Virus record (IMG/VR): IMGVR_UViG_3300032731_001386
Location: 1 to 38,940 of that record
Source: a virus
Strand: one strand, 5' to 3'
Length of the DNA: 38,940 nt
The notes under the pieces are model-generated. The model did not search any database, was not told the DNA's origin, and saw only the letters and a program-made list of their open reading frames with translations. The translations under genes and the position numbers were made by a program. Below are positions 1,626 to 30,038 of the stretch, one piece after another (positions within the stretch are counted from its first letter, which is position 1; each line of letters opens with the position of its first letter).

Positions 1626-1846
1626 GGTGAGAAGGTGTCCAGCAGGTCGATCGCCGACCGGAGTTCAGACACCCACGGCCCCGGTTCACCTGCCTCGAAC
1701 CTGTCACAAGAATACACAACACCGTGGGCCCGGTGGACGAAAAAGAACCTGCAGGACAGTGCGTCGTAATCCCACTCGAGACCCAACTCCATTGCAACTT
1801 TCCCGGCTAGCGGGAGTCGGCTATTCAGACACATGTATCCGGTCAT
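1622..1846 (-). CDS. Hypothetical protein, 74 aa, coupled to thyX
   Basis: Its ATG (1844-1846) overlaps the thyX stop as ATGA, and its own stop overlaps the next ATG in the same way, so it is translated as part of the thyX operon. The 74 residues (MTGYMCLNSRLPLAGKVAME...) look globular, with an aromatic/Cys-containing middle (CRFFFVHRAHGVVYSC), and show no domain that I recognise. Its position right after thyX may suggest nucleotide metabolism, but that is only association. Confidence 0.6.
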   Translation of the reverse strand: MTGYMCLNSRLPLAGKVAMELGLEWDYDALSCRFFFVHRAHGVVYSCDRFEAGEPGPWVSELRSAIDLLDTFSP

Positions 1847-2574
1847 GGTGCCAATCTTGCCCGGTGGAGGCGGTTCGTCTCATACCAACCCGCGATCTCC
1901 GGCACCCACCCAGTGACATGGGGCCACACCATGTCGCACAGGGCCTGGATTTCCGGCTGCGCGTCACGCTTACTGCGAAGGTCAAGAAAGTGGAGTGCGG
2001 AGCGAAGGCTAAAGCTCACTACGAAGTGTTGGCGAAGATCGAAGGGGAGGATGCCGCGAGCGTGTTCCTCGGCATACCCCGCCAAGATGAGTTCTTCGTA
2101 GCGAAGAGCTGCCTGGCTGCAAAGGAGCAAATCCTTTCCCCTTTGGTGTTCGGTGTACAGATATTTCTTTCCTTTTCGGTCGCTATAACTCCCTGCCGGT
2201 CTCAGATAGAACACCTCTTCTGGGGATATTTCACCACGGGCGGCTTTGCATACTCTTTCGCCGGTATACCGACCACTCTGTACATCGAATGAAATCCCGA
2301 CCCGGTGGGTGCGGGCCTGCTGCATTACCGAGTGGGGGAACCAGCCCGCGTTAAGCACGATCGATACGTGTTCGGTGGGGCCGTAGTGACCCCGCTCGCC
2401 GGCCAGCAGCCGCTTGACACACAGTTCCCCCGCTCGTGTTTCATCGGGCCACGAACTCCGCTCGTCGACAACAAACCCCTCGCTGTAGTCCTGGTGCATG
2501 GCGGCATAGATGACTTGTTGCGGGGTGGGGGTGGCGGCAATCAGCTCGACGCGGAAGTAAGGGTCGGGGATCAT
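1843..2574 (-). CDS. thyX: Flavin-dependent thymidylate synthase ThyX
   Basis: ThyX makes dTMP from dUMP using methylene-tetrahydrofolate, FAD and NADPH. The signature region QQARTHRVGISFDVQSGRY (about residues 84-102) carries the ThyX motif in its RTHR form, with the spaced Ser; my recollection is that cyanobacterial ThyX proteins also read RTHR. Downstream, LRYEELILAG...ILP and QHFVVSFSLRSALHFLDLR match the family's C-terminal helices. I start at ATG 2574 (MIPDPYF), giving 243 aa, about the normal size; the longer frame to 2631 would run through a perfect hairpin. It heads a coupled chain of small genes and would help a phage keep up dTMP supply. Confidence 0.93.
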   Translation of the reverse strand: MIPDPYFRVELIAATPTPQQVIYAAMHQDYSEGFVVDERSSWPDETRAGELCVKRLLAGERGHYGPTEHVSIVLNAGWFPHSVMQQARTHRVGISFDVQSGRYTGERVCKAARGEISPEEVFYLRPAGSYSDRKGKKYLYTEHQRGKDLLLCSQAALRYEELILAGYAEEHARGILPFDLRQHFVVSFSLRSALHFLDLRSKRDAQPEIQALCDMVWPHVTGWVPEIAGWYETNRLHRARLAP

Positions 2575-2593
2575 GGTGGGGGTTACAATGGTG

Positions 2594-2616
2594 AAAGATG
2601 CAAAAAGTGCATCTTT
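2594..2616. promoter_or_regulatory. 9-bp perfect hairpin in the thyX leader
   Basis: AAAGATGCA (2594-2602) pairs with TGCATCTTT (2608-2616) around AAAAG. It lies 20-42 nt upstream of the chosen thyX start and may act as an operator, RNA control element or terminator for the upstream gene. Confidence 0.5.
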
Positions 2617-2638
2617 GGCCGTGAGGGACAACGGGAAA

Positions 2639-2659
2639 GGTATACAAAAAACGTATACC
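2639..2659 (-). terminator. 7-bp hairpin after the gene at 2677-3102
   Basis: GGTATAC (2639-2645) pairs with GTATACC (2653-2659). On the minus strand the loop is GTTTTTT. It follows the stop at 2677 and precedes thyX, so it may end or process the upstream transcript. Confidence 0.45.
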
Positions 2660-2676
2660 TCACCCCCCGGGTCGAT

Positions 2677-3102
2677 TTAAGTTTCTCCAGCACTCCCGAA
2701 CGTCAACTCGACCATCGCTCCGGTCCAGGACTTTAGAGTAGCCGGCCGCAGCCCGCACACCACCCCCGTATCGGTACACACCGCCCCGGACTCGTCGACA
2801 AACACCCCATGCAGGCACAGACCGTCACCCGCCAACTCCACCGACCCGATGTACGTTTGGAAGTCCGGATCGATGTGTACCTGGTCTCCGGTATACGGAT
2901 CGTGGATGGAGTGTAGCGTGGTGTTCTCGGCCACATACAGTGCGCCGGACGGTTTGTCGGCCACGACCACCCGATCCAGGGGGATCTTGCGTTCCCGCAA
3001 CAACCTAAGGATGTCGGCTTGCCGACCGGTCCGGACCACGACTACGTCCAGGCTGGGGCGGGGTTTATCCTCCTCAGCATTAAACACTATGACGCGGCCC
3101 AT
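2677..3102 (-). CDS. Hypothetical protein, 141 aa
   Basis: ATG 3102 starts MGRVIVFNAEEDKPRP..., overlapping the end of the upstream gene by 16 nt. The N-terminal half has alternating hydrophobic strands and helices (SLDVVVVRTGRQADILRLL, then RVVVADKPSGALYVAEN) like a small alpha/beta fold. The C-terminal half is beta-rich (LCLHGVFVDESGAVCTDTGV). No catalytic motif is clear. It is the last gene before the hairpin at 2639-2659. A longer frame reaches 3327 but only by overlapping the neighbour heavily. Confidence 0.6.
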   Translation of the reverse strand: MGRVIVFNAEEDKPRPSLDVVVVRTGRQADILRLLRERKIPLDRVVVADKPSGALYVAENTTLHSIHDPYTGDQVHIDPDFQTYIGSVELAGDGLCLHGVFVDESGAVCTDTGVVCGLRPATLKSWTGAMVELTFGSAGET

Positions 3103-13034: not shown

Positions 13035-13415
13035 ATGAAACCCCCCAAACGTTACCAGGAAATTTTTGTAGAGAGGGAATTCCTGACGGCCCGTACCGAA
13101 GTGATTTACCAGGTGACCAAAGTCAACTCGGACACCTATCGGGTCATCCTAGAGCATCCGGTATTTGGGAAGACTCTAGAGATATTCGAGCTGGATAAGG
13201 ATGGAGATCTGTGCCTCAAGTCCGTATTCCCCACAGAAATGCAGGACAGCATTGAAGAGATCCAGTCGGTAAAATCATACTACAACGACTACTTGCTCGA
13301 TGGGTCTGAGTCATACCTGGAGTATCACAACCCCGAGGTCGGATACTTTTTGTTGAGCCGGAACATTGGCGTGTACCCAACCAGCACCTATCAGGTTGAC
13401 GATGAAGACGAATAA
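13035..13415 (+). CDS. Hypothetical protein, 126 aa
   Basis: ATG 13035 starts MKPPKRYQEIFVEREFL. The product is acidic, with an alternating beta pattern (VIYQVTKVNSDTYRVILEHP) and a very acidic tail (YQVDDEDE). No domain is recognised. It is divergent from the zinc-finger gene and overlaps the start of the topoisomerase gene by 14 nt, so both are probably transcribed together. Confidence 0.65.
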   Translation: MKPPKRYQEIFVEREFLTARTEVIYQVTKVNSDTYRVILEHPVFGKTLEIFELDKDGDLCLKSVFPTEMQDSIEEIQSVKSYYNDYLLDGSESYLEYHNPEVGYFLLSRNIGVYPTSTYQVDDEDE

Positions 13416-15426
13416 TACCCAACTCGTATCGATTGAGGCCGAGCTATCAGCCGACTTCCTCGCATACAGTACGGCCATTTATAACCGTGCGCTACCGGAC
13501 ATCGTAGACGGCCTCAAGGTGGCCCAGAGACGAGTCCTTTTGTCCTTGCACGATCTACGACTCTGGCCAGACTCCCCCTACTGCAAGGTGACTAGGGTAG
13601 AAGGGCACACCTTGGGGACGTATCACCCCCAGGGAGGATGTTCCGGCACAATAATTAACCTGGGGCAGGAGAGTTCGCTGCGTTATACGTTGACGGCGAT
13701 ACACGGAAATGCGGGCGGATCGATCCAGACCGGCAATTTCATCGGACAAATGGTCTCGGATGACTCACCGGCCGCACCCCGCTACTTAGAGGTCAAAGCT
13801 ACTAATTTCTGTCAGCGAGTATATCTTTCCGAGATCCGGAAGGGGTTGGGGGAATGGCGCGATAACTACGACGGAAGTCGGTCGGAGCCCACCCGTATCA
13901 TACCAGCCCTACCCTCCCTCCTGCTCACTGGCGCAGTAGGCATAGCCTCCGGATACGCGTGCTCGCATGTCCCCTGGAACCTAAGAGACGTGGTGAATGC
14001 CACCATCGCCCTGATCCGCACACCGGGTATGACCGATGCAGCTTTGGTGGCGAAGTTCACCAATCCCCCCGAGCCTCCAGCCGGAGGTCGCGTGGTTTGT
14101 GATGGGGGGGTCCGGTCCGCGCTATTGACAGGGCGTGGCCAAATAACGGTTTATGGGGAGTGGGAGATTGATGATTCGTTGGCTTGGGGCAAGAGGTCTA
14201 CCCGCCCCGCCCTAATCGTTACCAGGCTGGCTTCAGGCTCAAGCGAGAAATTCCTGGAGCGGGTGAGAGATTTTGCCGATGCGGAGAAGTTGCCCGGCCT
14301 ACTGGATGCCGCTGACCACTCGAGTCGAGATGGTGTCCGGATTGTGTTGGTTACCAAGACCGTAGAAGACCGGGACCGATTGCTGGGAGTTCTGGTCCAT
14401 AATGGTACGGGACTCAAACATACCCTCAGTGTTAATGCCACTGCGGTGGGGTGTGATGGGAAACCTCGCACCGTGGGGGTGCGCGAGTCGATACGGACGT
14501 GGTACGAGGCGAGGGTGGGGTATTTGACCGAGTCGAATCGGTCTGAGCTGAATCGCCTCAGCATTGATTCGGACCGTATGGTTGCGATTCTGTCAGTCCT
14601 GAACGATCTAGACAATTTCATCAGTACAGTACGTGGTGCGAAGGATAAATCGGATGCTGTTGAGAAAGTCTCCGGGGTGTGGAAGATTTCTGCTGATCTG
14701 GCCAAGTACGTCATCAACATCCCCATCTCGACCCTGATCAATACGGAACGGGAGGATATCCAGGACCGCCACGATAAACTATCAGCCGAGATCGATAACC
14801 TCACGACTCTGTGCACCCCGGGCCCCGCCCTCGACACCTACATCTGCTCCGAGCTCGCATCCCTCAGGGGCCTGTGCGGCCCGGCAAGGTCGGTCTGGAT
14901 GGGGGGTGACGTACCTGCCCATCAACAGTCCGTAAAGCCCCCCACGGAGCGGGAAAAGATGGCTGAGGAGGCCAAAGCTTTGGGTATTAGTGCCCGCGTA
15001 CTGGACCAGTGGATAAGGGATAACACCGGGACGGGGAAGTTATTCGACAAGTGGCAGGAGTACAAGTTGGAGTACGATCATCGGATCCAGATGACCACTC
15101 GGGACGGGAAAAAACAACGACGGATCGAGCTGGACAAGATCCGGGCTGATATGGAGGGTCGTGGCCTCCCCCGGCGTGGTCAATACGCCTGGAACGCATT
15201 TCTTTCCCAGTATGGGAGTTGCCGGATGGATACTATTCGTGATAAGGTGGTGGAATGGCTATCGAAGCTACCGCCACCCCATAATGCCCACACCAATCCG
15301 GATCAGCCTAAGTCCGCGACACCTCGAACTCGCAGAAGCCGAGGCTCAGAGGAGGCAGGGGGGAAACGAGATGGCAGGGTTGAGGGGGAGAAACCGAGCC
15401 CCGGAGAGGGGTGGCCGGGCCCTTGA
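13402..15426 (+). CDS. Type IIA DNA topoisomerase, A subunit (GyrA/ParC-like)
   Basis: Type IIA topoisomerase A subunits carry the catalytic Tyr that cuts DNA. Seen here from ATG 13402 (674 aa): RALPDIVDGLKVAQRRVLL (near residue 30), GTYHPQGGCSGTIINLGQ and LTAIHGNAGGS (~70-110), the active-site Tyr in AAPRYLEVKAT (~125-135), and LLLTGAVGIASGYACSHVPW (~170-190). There is no C-terminal beta-propeller; instead a lysine/arginine-rich end follows. No B (ATPase) subunit lies in the window, so it would need one elsewhere or from the host. The last 143 nt overlap the next gene in another frame. Confidence 0.9.
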   Translation: MKTNNTQLVSIEAELSADFLAYSTAIYNRALPDIVDGLKVAQRRVLLSLHDLRLWPDSPYCKVTRVEGHTLGTYHPQGGCSGTIINLGQESSLRYTLTAIHGNAGGSIQTGNFIGQMVSDDSPAAPRYLEVKATNFCQRVYLSEIRKGLGEWRDNYDGSRSEPTRIIPALPSLLLTGAVGIASGYACSHVPWNLRDVVNATIALIRTPGMTDAALVAKFTNPPEPPAGGRVVCDGGVRSALLTGRGQITVYGEWEIDDSLAWGKRSTRPALIVTRLASGSSEKFLERVRDFADAEKLPGLLDAADHSSRDGVRIVLVTKTVEDRDRLLGVLVHNGTGLKHTLSVNATAVGCDGKPRTVGVRESIRTWYEARVGYLTESNRSELNRLSIDSDRMVAILSVLNDLDNFISTVRGAKDKSDAVEKVSGVWKISADLAKYVINIPISTLINTEREDIQDRHDKLSAEIDNLTTLCTPGPALDTYICSELASLRGLCGPARSVWMGGDVPAHQQSVKPPTEREKMAEEAKALGISARVLDQWIRDNTGTGKLFDKWQEYKLEYDHRIQMTTRDGKKQRRIELDKIRADMEGRGLPRRGQYAWNAFLSQYGSCRMDTIRDKVVEWLSKLPPPHNAHTNPDQPKSATPRTRRSRGSEEAGGKRDGRVEGEKPSPGEGWPGP

Positions 15427-17643: not shown

Positions 17644-18467
17644 ATAGTGTTCTGTACTGTCCGGGTCGTACCACAGTTAACCACGAACAGTTTTTATTAG
17701 AGTACGGAGGGTTATCAAATTACCGATTCCTCGTACTTGATACGTCTACCGCCGGATTGGCGTATGCGAGTGGCTCCAGCGAGTTGATTTTGTGCGCGAA
17801 TGAGAGATATCACCTCGAAATGCACAAATTTCTGACAATTTCCCCTGCGCACCGGTACATCAGAGATGTGTGGGAGAACAAATACGATGGCGGGATGAAC
17901 TGGAGAGAAAGGGGCAGATTTATCGCCGTACTTAACAACCGTACCCGCCCCAAAGTTATGCGCACTTGGGATGATATGGCCCGATATTACTGCATACTGG
18001 CTATGAGCGGGTTCCAGACTAACTTCCATAAGTGGAGATTGATCTCAGAGCATACCCCGGTCACTCCTAACTACACAGCTATCCGGGAGTGGGCACAAAC
18101 ACACAAGCACAAGACGGTACGATACTACCGACGTAACGTATATAATTTTCCGACCCCCGAACTTGACCCGGAAACAGTAATATACATCCATTTGCCCGAT
18201 AACTTTGCCCCGTACGGGTGCGGGTACTCTTGGACCAAAAGAAAACTAAATCGCGTAGCCCAAGACCTGATCTACTTCGCCGAACTCGGTCAACCAATTA
18301 TCCTAAGCATTACTCACGGCCGGTGGGGTAAGAGGGACACGGGCATTGAAAAACTATTCCCTGAGAATCTTTTCCGTTCCCACTATTACACAGAGTTGAA
18401 AGCTCAAAAGCCGGGGTTTAACTCCAAACCGATAACGGAGGCGTATTTAGTTGCAAATCTCGGGTAA
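17640..18467 (+). CDS. D12-class (Dam-like) adenine methylase-like protein, catalytic motif degenerate
   Basis: The 275-aa product follows the general order of D12 N6-adenine methylases: an N-terminal glycine-containing strand (EYGGLSNYRFLVLD), then RPKVMRTWDDMARYYCILAM and GFQTNFHKW, then a strand VIYIHLPDNFAPYGCGY, then helices and GQPIILSITHG. In active enzymes the strand ends in DPPY; here it reads HLPD, so methyl transfer would probably be lost. It may have a binding role, or the assignment may be wrong. It is coupled to the preceding gene by ATGA. Confidence 0.4.
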   Translation: MNSVLYCPGRTTVNHEQFLLEYGGLSNYRFLVLDTSTAGLAYASGSSELILCANERYHLEMHKFLTISPAHRYIRDVWENKYDGGMNWRERGRFIAVLNNRTRPKVMRTWDDMARYYCILAMSGFQTNFHKWRLISEHTPVTPNYTAIREWAQTHKHKTVRYYRRNVYNFPTPELDPETVIYIHLPDNFAPYGCGYSWTKRKLNRVAQDLIYFAELGQPIILSITHGRWGKRDTGIEKLFPENLFRSHYYTELKAQKPGFNSKPITEAYLVANLG

Positions 18468-18480
18468 TGACGTCCGGGGG

Positions 18481-18822
18481 ATGGGAAACCACACCCTGTT
18501 GAATGTGTGCGGGTGCGGAGAGATCGATAGGTTGAGGTCGCTGGCTCTGTTCAGGGCTTGGGCGGGCCCCATGTTAGCCTTGTGCGGCGCCGAGGTGGTC
18601 GATGTGCTGGGGTACCAGTTCCAACCGTTTGGCGAAGCCGGCTTCACGTACCTAGCCCTCCTCACCACCTCCCATTTCTCGATTCACACGTGGCCCGAGT
18701 ACCGATCCGCCGCCGTTGATGTGTTCACGTGTGGTACTCGGGTCGATACGGATAGGATTGTGGCCGAGCTGGGTGGGTTTTTTGCTCCGGCATCGCAAAC
18801 TGTCCAGACCGTGTTAAGGTAG
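18481..18822 (+). CDS. speD: S-adenosylmethionine decarboxylase proenzyme SpeD
   Basis: SpeD self-cleaves to form a pyruvoyl group and decarboxylates AdoMet for spermidine synthesis. The segment LLTTSHFSIHTWPEYRSAAV, then DVFTCG, contains the cleavage Ser64, His69 and Cys84 when translation starts at ATG 18481, almost the textbook numbering (63/68/83). This favours that start over TTG 18451. The usual Glu before the Ser is Thr here, which is unusual and could affect processing. SpeD is, as I recall, a common cyanophage auxiliary gene. Confidence 0.92.
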   Translation: MGNHTLLNVCGCGEIDRLRSLALFRAWAGPMLALCGAEVVDVLGYQFQPFGEAGFTYLALLTTSHFSIHTWPEYRSAAVDVFTCGTRVDTDRIVAELGGFFAPASQTVQTVLR

Positions 18823-19181: not shown

Positions 19182-19302
19182 GTCCGCTTAGCTCAGTTGA
19201 ACAGAGCAACTGCCTTCTGGGGTTTTTAGTAAACTTAGATCGGGAGCGTAACCCGATACCCCGTTAAGCAGTCGGTCGTGGGTTTGAATCCCTCAGCGGA
19301 CG
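19182..19302 (+). tRNA. tRNA-Arg(TCT) with a 47-nt insertion in the anticodon loop
   Basis: GTCCGCT pairs with AGCGGAC, the D-stem is GCTC/GAGC, and the anticodon stem is ACTGC/GCAGT. If 19219-19265 is removed, the loop becomes CTTCTAA, a normal tRNA-Arg loop with anticodon TCT. The 47-nt insert sits between positions 36 and 37 and folds on itself (GGGGT/ACCCC, ATCGGG/CCCGAT). It is far too short for a known group I intron. The T-arm is GTGGG-TTTGAAT-CCCTC with one mismatch. Confidence 0.8.
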
Positions 19303-19305
19303 CCA

Positions 19306-24911: not shown

Positions 24912-24937
24912 CGGGGGCCCCATGGCCCCCGTTTTTT
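24912..24937. terminator. Strong GC-rich terminator, shared by convergent genes
   Basis: CGGGGGCC...GGCCCCCG (24912-24931) followed by TTTTTT (24932-24937). It serves the plus-strand RlpA-like gene. The reverse strand has a weaker U-tract. Confidence 0.85.
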
Positions 24938-25355
24938 ACATTTTCCCACAGGAAGAACCCAGCAAGTATTTGATAGACCGGAAGTCGGTCATCGCCGCCT
25001 CGATCAGATTCAGGATGCCGTATTCACCAGCGTCATCACACTTCTCATGGAGCTTGTCCAGAGCTTCGCACACGTCCTCAGCTACCCCGCACAACTCGGT
25101 TACCAGCTCGGTACCGGTCGACCACTCGAGCTCAGGCACATCATGGAACATTTTGGCCGGGATCTCAATTTTGCTACCCCGAGCCTGTTCGGCCATCGGA
25201 TCGATGTGGGCTTCGGACATCTCGTACACACGCTGGAACAGCAAGTGCAGGGAGTAGAACTCTCCACTTTCTCCGGTCACGTTAAAGTGACTGAGCTGGG
25301 CGGCATACGTGAACGATGCCAGCTTGGTTAGGGCGTCAACGAATTCGGTTTCCAT
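24936..25355 (-). CDS. Dps-like ferritin-fold protein, 139 aa
   Basis: The segment LSHFNVTGESGEFYSLHLLF, QRVYEMSEAHIDPMAEQARG follows the Dps signature H-x-N-V-x-G...F-x-x-L-H-x-x-F...D-x-x-A-E, keeping the His, Asp and Glu of the ferroxidase site. Dps proteins form 12-mers that bind iron and protect DNA from peroxide. Length is slightly short for the family. In a phage it could protect DNA or bind nucleoprotein. It is the last gene of the minus-strand virion block, and ends at the shared terminator. Confidence 0.75.
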   Translation of the reverse strand: METEFVDALTKLASFTYAAQLSHFNVTGESGEFYSLHLLFQRVYEMSEAHIDPMAEQARGSKIEIPAKMFHDVPELEWSTGTELVTELCGVAEDVCEALDKLHEKCDDAGEYGILNLIEAAMTDFRSIKYLLGSSCGKM

Positions 25356-28137: not shown

Positions 28138-30038
28138 TTAAGCACCAACGGGATTCAGGAAGATGGCACCAGCGCCAACCCTTCCAGATTCTCCCATGCC
28201 CACGAGCTCAAATGATCTTTCGACCAAGATATCGCCCTCGAAGACTCTCCTGTCCATAGAAAAACGCTCTGGCGTTGATATCGGGTAACCTGCTAATGTG
28301 TAGGTGTACGCATAAGCTGGGGTACCGTAGTTAGCATCTAGAGCAGGAGTGAAACCGTCAGTACTACCACTGGGATGATAGAACATAACAGCCACGTTTT
28401 CGTAGATGTTTTCCAGAGCACTGGTTTCAGTGTTCAGTTTGAGACGGCGAGCGACACGAATCTCGTCGAGACCGAAGATCTCAGCAAGGCTCTTTTCGTT
28501 CACCAGAATACCGCGCTGCATGAAGTCACGGATACGCTTGTTACGCTTGAGAGCGTTAAACGCATCAGGAGACAGAACAAGTTTGTTGGGATAGCAACCT
28601 ATTTGTCCACGTACTTGCTCCTTCATGTCATCAAACAGTACTTCGATGTCAGAAGTCGGGCTGTTAAATTGATCGGCGCCAGAGTTGTAGGAAGCCAGGT
28701 CGAGAACGTTGCCGGTTTCGTATTGAGTTACGTCCAGAACTTTCTCGCTGACCTGGATTTCCCAGCTCTGCATGAGGCGGTTAGCAGCGTCCTTAGCGGC
28801 ATATGCGCGAAGGTCAATGGCGGCGGCGCCATTTTTGGCTTCTGCGGCCACTTCTTCAGCAAGCTGCCAGCTAATGGCTTCTTGGCGAAGAGCGAACGAA
28901 CGGGTTCCGAATTCATTAGAGATCTTCTGAATGTTGGTACCAGGCGCACGCAGGAACGACTGAGCGGCGAATGCCTCCTTGCCAAACACAAGGGTGCGGC
29001 CAGCCCGGACGCTCATAGAGACGGCAGGGGCGAAGAAGGTCGCAACACCTTCTGTATTCTTGTACAAATTGTTAACGTAGAAGCTCTTTATCTTCTACTT
29101 CTTGCAATTTCTTGCAAGTTCGGACTATATCTTCAACCCTAAGGTTGAGGGGCACTCGTGGGAGAAGTTATTGTTGGGACTCATTCTCCTAGTCTCTGAA
29201 CCTTCCGAAAGCACTAAAGCCCACTTTCGGCTTGGCTGCTGATTGCCATGTCTAACTTTATCCCATGGAAAATACTTCTTTCACCCTTTACCAGTCGAAT
29301 GAATTTTTTGTGTTCGCTCGGGTTTACTGAGATGCCAAATATATGGCAAAGATACTCACTTGTACGAGCAAAATCACTAAATTGATTCTGGTCAATGAAA
29401 ACCGATCTGTGTCCAAATTTAAATCTAAATTTGGATTCCATGAGGTCTATAGTTTCGTCGCTAAATCTAGCTGTTCTATTGGCAGCTATGTTATTTTTAG
29501 CAGCTTTGGAGACGTTTTGCCTCCAAGATTCGCCTCTGGATACTATGCCAGATTTTCTCTCTAGCATGGTTTTGTAAGCTTTTTTATTAGCTTTAGATCT
29601 TTTTTCAAATGTCCATGTTTTCTGGGCTAATGCACCAGACATTCTTTTGGCTTCCCCAGTTGGATCTCCTTTCATGAATAGAAAAGCAATCTTATCCGGT
29701 TTAGAGTCATAAGCTAACCATCTATAGTAGTGAGCTAAAATGTGATTTTTTCTAGAAAGTCTAATGATGTTTAATTTTTCATTAGTCCCTCCACAGTGTC
29801 TAGGGATTATGTGGTGTTTTTCCACATATTCCCCTGACTCTATCTCACCTTTTTCTATCGAGTGACAATACTCAATAAATTTCTCGTAGATGGTTTCCAT
29901 GTAGGTCAGATTTAGGTTTTCCAGCAATTCACCCCTTTATAATACCACAGATTTCTCTGAGGCACGGCTACAAAATTAACCTTGTGCGAGTTGCGTTAGA
30001 ATGGGGTCAATAATTCTGACCGAATCAAGATTCATCAT
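28138..30038 (-). CDS. Major capsid protein, split by a group I intron (exons 29979-30038 and 28138-29064)
   Basis: Exon 1 (60 nt, ATG 30038) encodes MMNLDSVRIIDPILTQLAQG. Exon 2 continues in phase with YKNTEGVATFFAPAVSMSVR and reaches the stop at 28138. The joined product is 328 aa. It shows capsid features: a DPxLTxLAxGY start, FGTRSFALRQEAISWQLAEE, CYPNKLVLSPDAFNALKRN and a late EIFGLDEIRVARRLKLN, as in HK97-fold capsids. A GGAG ribosome site lies just upstream, in the end of the decoration gene. Unspliced, exon 1 would stop at TAA right after the splice site. Confidence 0.9.
29065..29978 (-). mobile_element. Group I intron (914 nt) in the capsid gene
   Basis: The 5' exon ends in T (GGT) and the intron ends in G, as in group I introns. 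A P1 helix can form between GCAC..GGT and GCCGTGC with the U-G pair at the splice site. Core elements are present in order on the minus strand: P AATTGCTGGAAA (29915-29929), Q GGCAATCAGCAGCCAAGCC (29229-29247), R GTTCAGAGACTA (29190-29201) and S GAAGATATAGTCC (29122-29134). GCTG/CAGC (P/Q) and GACTA/TAGTC (R/S) pair. The HNH gene is inside. Confidence 0.93.
29214..29900 (-). CDS. HNH homing endonuclease in the capsid intron, 228 aa
   Basis: ATG 29900 (METIYEKFIEYCHSIEKGEI) opens the gene. The HNH site is EKHHIIPRHCGGTNEKLNII, then RLSRKNHILAHYYRWLAY, with the H-H, N and H residues of the family. A DNA-binding tail of mixed basic helices follows. The AT-rich base composition differs from its surroundings, fitting a mobile gene. 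Its last codons (AISSQAESGL) double as the intron Q element. The enzyme probably cleaves intronless capsid genes and so spreads the intron. Confidence 0.9.
   Translation of the reverse strand: METIYEKFIEYCHSIEKGEIESGEYVEKHHIIPRHCGGTNEKLNIIRLSRKNHILAHYYRWLAYDSKPDKIAFLFMKGDPTGEAKRMSGALAQKTWTFEKRSKANKKAYKTMLERKSGIVSRGESWRQNVSKAAKNNIAANRTARFSDETIDLMESKFRFKFGHRSVFIDQNQFSDFARTSEYLCHIFGISVNPSEHKKFIRLVKGERSIFHGIKLDMAISSQAESGL

Follow-up and report, generated by a model that had tools for sequence, protein, structure and literature searches.

The window, which is the whole stretch of DNA analysed here, is a 38,940-base virus record from a relative of the cyanophage S-TIM5. Between about 35 and 27 kb, the minus strand encodes a tail sheath, a head protease, the capsid protein and head-tail proteins (Pfam, PHROG), with the genes in the same order as in S-TIM5. 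The capsid gene is divided by a 914-nt insert with an endonuclease frame inside it.

30038-29979, minus strand: capsid exon 1, 20 codons, MMNLDSVRIIDPILTQLAQG, last base T (alignment with intronless S-TIM capsids)
29978-29065, minus strand: group I intron, 914 nt (borders from intronless relatives; Rfam RF00028, 41.2 bits)
29900-29214, minus strand: frame of an HNH homing endonuclease (228 aa), located in the P5 loop and extending through Q into P6a (PHROG 655 homing endonuclease, E 5.7e-18; Pfam HNH)
29064-28138, minus strand: capsid exon 2, 308 codons followed by the stop codon (exon join; match to the major head protein family PHROG 1005, E 1.3e-54)

The capsid proteins of S-TIM5, S-TIM66 and S-TIM54 are uninterrupted and share the N-terminus MMNLDQVRVIDPILTQLAQGYKNAEGVATFF; in S-TIM5, MMNLDQVRVIDPILTQLAQG runs unbroken into YKNAEG. 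In the window, MMNLDSVRIIDPILTQLAQG extends up to 29979 and YKNTEGVATFF resumes at 29064, with the 914-nt gap in between. The insert begins with TAATTTTG directly after the T of exon 1 and ends in AATTTG. When it is removed, LAQG continues into YKN in frame, and both the frame and the residues at the join match the three S-TIM capsids, as they do on exact removal of a group I intron. The original prediction, an insertion near codon 20 between in-phase exons, is thus sharpened to a break directly after codon 20. The predicted 5' T and 3' G are also in place: the final U of exon 1 is paired with a guide G, and the last base of the intron is G, as at group I borders. Splicing would join CACAAGGT to TACAAGAAT. 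The TTG at 29067-29065 is the 3' end of the intron and lies outside the capsid protein, which corrects an earlier reading.

Elsewhere in the window, Pfam identifies a ThyX-type thymidylate synthase (1843-2631, minus strand), topoisomerase IV subunit A (13366-15426, plus strand), AdoMet decarboxylase (18451-18822, plus strand) and a ferritin-like protein (24936-25355, minus strand). A tRNA at 19182-19305 (plus strand) carries a 47-nt insert in its anticodon loop, at about 19219-19265, with a GGGG...CCCC hairpin. In cyanophage S-SM2, the same tRNA-Arg(UCU) arm (ACTGCCTTCTAAGCAGT) lacks these 47 nt; ARAGORN detects the window tRNA only when introns are permitted, in which case it assigns Lys(ttt). 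Only one other contig with the insert was found (L104), and a length of 47 nt does not suffice for a group I intron.

Ribozyme core of the capsid insert

All four core elements that had been read from the letters, P, Q, R and S, were located, together with the helices around them.

29966-29970, minus strand: P1 guide strand UAGCC, which pairs with GGU of the exon and UA of the intron and forms U.G at the splice site (fold and pair test)
UUUUGUA just 5' of the guide GCC, minus strand: P10, pairing with the exon 2 start UACAAGA (fold and pair test)
29942-29965, minus strand: P2 hairpin (fold, position)
29918-29929, minus strand: P element (position)
29234-29244, minus strand: Q element, within the last HNH codons (position)
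29205-29230, minus strand: P6a hairpin, whose 5' arm and loop carry the end of the HNH frame (compensatory change in 6 of 7 pairs; position)
29190-29201, minus strand: R element, the P7 5' strand (position; P7 invariant in 10 distinct rows)
29161-29189, minus strand: P7.1/P7.2-type hairpin (covariation test, position)
29134-29147, minus strand: P8 hairpin (covariation test, position)
29122-29133, minus strand: S element, the P7 3' strand (position)
29101-29118, minus strand: P9 hairpin (compensatory change in 5 of 6 pairs; position)
29077-29098, minus strand: P9.1-type hairpin near the 3' splice site (compensatory change in 6 of 7 pairs, 73% of cells paired; position)

P7, formed by R with S, pairs in all ten distinct rows, as in a group I core. 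Covariation was tested on 39 pairs of P6, P6a, P7, P7.1, P8, P9 and P9.1, in a structure drawn from the window sequence and hence biased towards it. Among 13 introns (10 distinct rows), both sides change in 24 of the 39 pairs, and 89.6% of the cells are paired. None of 500 shuffles reached as high, and slid versions of the structure gave only 3 to 11 pairs. One of the five covariation measures, the number of further pair types, was no better than shuffled (274/500). RNAalifold alone recovered 19 pairs only, and pairing on the alignment is partial in outer P8 (63% of cells) and in P9.1. By eye, P4 covaries as well, with UUGCUG/CAGCAG replaced by UUGCGG/CCGCAG in L036 and by UUUCGG/CCGAAG in L029, and P7 and P3 are separated by one or two helices, where the subgroup IA2 intron of cyanophage Pf-WMP3 has P7.1 and P7.2. 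A chance resemblance to a group I core is ruled out by the covariation.

The pairings with the exons follow the same pattern. P10 comprises 7 bp in the window; in the codon-20 intron of contig L040 it is kept by a compensatory change (exon 2 UACCG, intron CGGUA), and in that of L066 a mismatch follows after 3 pairs. In P1 of L036, the guide tracks a change in exon 1, as read from the fold. The exact borders, the P, Q, R and S elements and the core covariation together uphold the predicted group I intron in the capsid gene.

The covariance-model check of that prediction gave a divided outcome. RF00028 has a real match in the window at 29408-29101 (41.2 bits, E 8e-9), and four distinct sister introns exceed the cut-off (L056 and L092, the latter repeating the former, at 90.5 bits, L029 at 84.4, L022 at 70.7 and L036 at 61.2); the window itself, however, falls below the gathering score of 50 and is therefore absent from a default scan. 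The introns of L040, L044 and L066, all with an ORF between P and Q like the window, also miss the cut-off, and so does the psbA HNH intron of cyanophage S-SRM01, which has the same P-ORF-Q layout and scores 39 bits. Because these introns of one layout all fall short, the low score appears to be tied to the ORF in the P5 loop, which suggests that RF00028 handles such an ORF poorly.

An HNH frame that runs into the core

The HNH gene proposed for the intron is corroborated by the PHROG 655 match. The Pfam HNH match is weak (18.3 bits, E 0.0025, cut-off 21.4), and those of L040 and L044 are likewise below the cut-off. Translation more likely starts at the ATG at 29900 than at the listed TTG at 29927, which falls in the P element; inspection by eye revealed no clear ribosome site upstream of this ATG. 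The stop codon (29216-29214) lies within the P6a loop, 18 bases past the end of Q. The 5' arm of P6a and Q itself are therefore coding, and the claim that Q lies within the last HNH codons holds. In L040 and L044, the frame extends further, to the R element.

In the L066 intron (2086-3000, codon 20), the HNH reading frame is interrupted, leaving two ORFs, and is a decaying homing gene, and the capsid intron of L036 has no ORF. Together with the weak Pfam match and the ribosome site that was not apparent by eye, these cases would suit a real intron that is no longer mobile, with a splicing ribozyme and an HNH protein that is inactive or unexpressed. We consider this rather unlikely for the window: the frame is intact there and in L006, L037, L040 and L044, as well as over the available part in L088, and the window and L044 proteins are 67% identical, which for two open frames is expected only after selection for a time.

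Interrupted and intact capsid genes in relatives

A first capsid scan of IMG/VR kept 80 contigs of 157 relatives. Sixty-two lack an intron, and exon 1 continues in frame into exon 2; the other 18 are interrupted, 8 of them at codon 20 and 10 at a second site, codon 8. A second scan with the S-TIM5 capsid kept 80 of 123 contigs; 46 of these were already in the first scan (contig names, compared by eye), and all 34 newly seen ones are intronless with exon 1 joined. The search for intronless relatives thus yielded 99 alleles (62, 34 and the three S-TIM phages), and exon 1 is in frame in every one. Other scans contributed one allele at each site, L088 at codon 20 and L092 at codon 8. With the window included, there are 10 codon-20 and 11 codon-8 alleles, many of them near copies; the distinct full-length exon contexts number 4 at codon 20 and 5 at codon 8. 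The intron is incomplete in L007, L008, L012 and L088 at codon 20 and in L024 at codon 8, because these contigs start inside it. No allele with both introns occurs among the examined capsid contigs.

These alleles bear on a reading in which a free-standing HNH gene broke the capsid gene and the protein is now made from the TTG at 29067, with exon 1 dead. An open frame from this TTG does span the remaining capsid protein. Against this, exon 1 is kept in frame by 99 of 99 intronless relatives, none of which has a capsid starting at 29067 without it, and exon 1 is intact in the four distinct full-length codon-20 alleles; moreover, the end of the insert coincides exactly with a codon join, its borders are U and G, and its group I core covaries. 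We therefore reject this reading as very improbable. That the insert is an intein or a group II intron has nothing in its favour beyond its position in a conserved gene and is practically negligible, since immediate in-frame stop codons rule out an intein, and the core and the Rfam match are those of group I.

Intron presence is scattered on the capsid tree. On 67 exon-2 rows, after rows of one label with identical exon 2 had been merged, the three states need 11 changes, as compared to a shuffled mean of 13.5. Exon 2 of L012 (codon 20) is 99.8% identical to that of its nearest intronless relatives, L013, L014 and L016. A close empty allele of the window was not found, the best intronless exon 2 being 79% identical. 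At codon 8, L022 and L023 are 100% identical over flanks of 2092 + 992 bp (3,084 bp), and L023 lacks exactly the 873-nt intron. L023 may represent an empty allele at the DNA level or else a contig assembled from spliced transcripts; its IMG sample, 3300012711, may be a metatranscriptome, and the sample number turned up in no paper searched.

The codon-8 introns (L017, L022, L029, L036, L056 and their copies) interrupt the same gene and have a core similar to that of the window intron. In contrast to it, they split the gene between GTCCGT and GTAATTGAC, 36 nt upstream, differ in P8 and P9, and carry either a GIY-YIG frame 5' of P4 or no ORF. The GIY-YIG enzyme (L022, Pfam E 2.8e-17) precedes P4, with its last codons overlapping the P element. 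The ORF-less intron of L036 (1328-1649) is 322 nt long and still scores 61.2 bits in Rfam.

The stretch from the end of P6a through R to P3 comprises 57 bases that are identical, by eye, between the window and L017/L022. Another version of the R-P3 stretch is common, also by eye, to L040 and L066 (codon 20) and L036 (codon 8). The sharing of these versions suggests an exchange between the sites or an old polymorphism. A core tree of 15 introns, from which the near copies L006, L088 and L092 were omitted, has no starred branch and is too weak to decide on one origin for both sites. As counted by eye, none of the 5 distinct full-length codon-8 alleles has the T of GGT at codon 20, and none of the 4 distinct full-length codon-20 alleles has CGT at codon 8; among 43 distinct intronless rows, GGT occurs in about 11 and CGT in 4. 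A mutual exclusion of the two introns, judged from these exon letters, is not significant.

Known phage introns and the proposed behaviour

The nearest HNH protein in named phages is a putative endonuclease between two psbA parts of S-SRM01 (MW015081), 45% identical to the window protein over its first 95 residues, with the C-terminal part unaligned. As in the window, this HNH frame lies between P and Q and runs through Q (CAATCAGCATCC) into P6a. Unlike the window intron, the S-SRM01 intron resides in psbA and has two further group I matches downstream. The three matches in this psbA region (L122) score 39, 91.9 and 81.5 bits, the first being the one beside the HNH relative. In the passages of one paper, a self-splicing intron in S-SRM01 psbA is suggested, and psbA introns with enzymes are given for S-SRM01 and, by citation, for S-CBWM1 (PMC8557907).

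The original prediction called introns in capsid genes less common than those in polymerase or nuclease genes. This is fair, but such introns are already known in the mycobacteriophage LittleE and, as cited in a passage of the LittleE paper, in the lactococcal phage Tuc2009 (PMC3706429). According to the passages on LittleE, its major capsid gene, like that of the window, holds a group I-like intron that encodes a putative homing enzyme; RT-PCR and the protein N-terminus demonstrated splicing (PMC3706429). In contrast to the window intron, it belongs to an unrelated phage, measures 819 bp and has its enzyme on the opposite strand, LAGLIDADG-like by the text of the paper (PMC3706429). The cyanophage Pf-WMP3 intron with I-PfoP3I, as described in passages of its report, resembles that of the window in that an HNH ORF spans group I core elements, and differs in that it lies in the DNA polymerase gene, belongs to subgroup IA2 and has an ORF starting in P6a and spanning P7 (PMC3428280). 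Core overlap by intron ORFs is also treated as generally known in passages of another paper (PMC3984707), and those of a 2025 paper name both this overlap and shortcomings of the Rfam model (PMC11878797). The same passages infer that the polymerase gene of a Bastille-group phage was colonized by two introns with different enzymes (PMC11878797). In the titles, abstracts and passages of the literature covered, no report of a capsid intron in S-TIM5-like phages was found. Capsid introns and core-overlapping ORFs are already published phenomena, to which the window intron adds a well-supported case.

With high confidence, we read the interruption of the capsid gene as a mobile group I intron, whose RNA would splice and whose HNH protein would most likely home. 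Judging from the anatomy, the covariation and the exact restoration of the exons, the RNA would fold into the group I core and cut after the U of codon 20; this U would then be joined to UACAAG..., restoring a capsid protein of 328 residues. By analogy with its family, the HNH protein most likely cuts or nicks the intronless capsid gene near codon 20, and repair would copy the intron in. Since the end of the HNH frame is made of Q and P6a, ribosomes on this frame would block folding of the core, and each transcript probably yields either enzyme or splicing. The broken frame of L066 and the missing ORF of L036 fit, as expected, a cycle of gain, decay and loss.

A broader picture, which we put forward only tentatively and think somewhat unlikely, would make the first 60 nt of the capsid gene an arena. 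Related ribozymes at two sites 36 nt apart would be armed with unrelated endonucleases, HNH in the P5 loop and GIY-YIG 5' of P4, whose coding ends are fused into different core elements. The introns would convert each other in coinfection, in keeping with the R-P3 versions that occur across both sites, and the enzymes would serve as weapons against the capsid genes of rival phages.

The window and S-SRM01 indicate that introns with an ORF in the P5 loop can fall below the Rfam cut-off and escape routine annotation. In these phages, one presumably highly expressed gene occurs intronless and with introns that are ORF-less, carry an intact enzyme or carry a broken one, at two neighbouring sites and with two enzyme families. 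This series of capsid introns opens the cycle of gain, arming, decay and loss, and the competition of endonucleases for one gene, to test.
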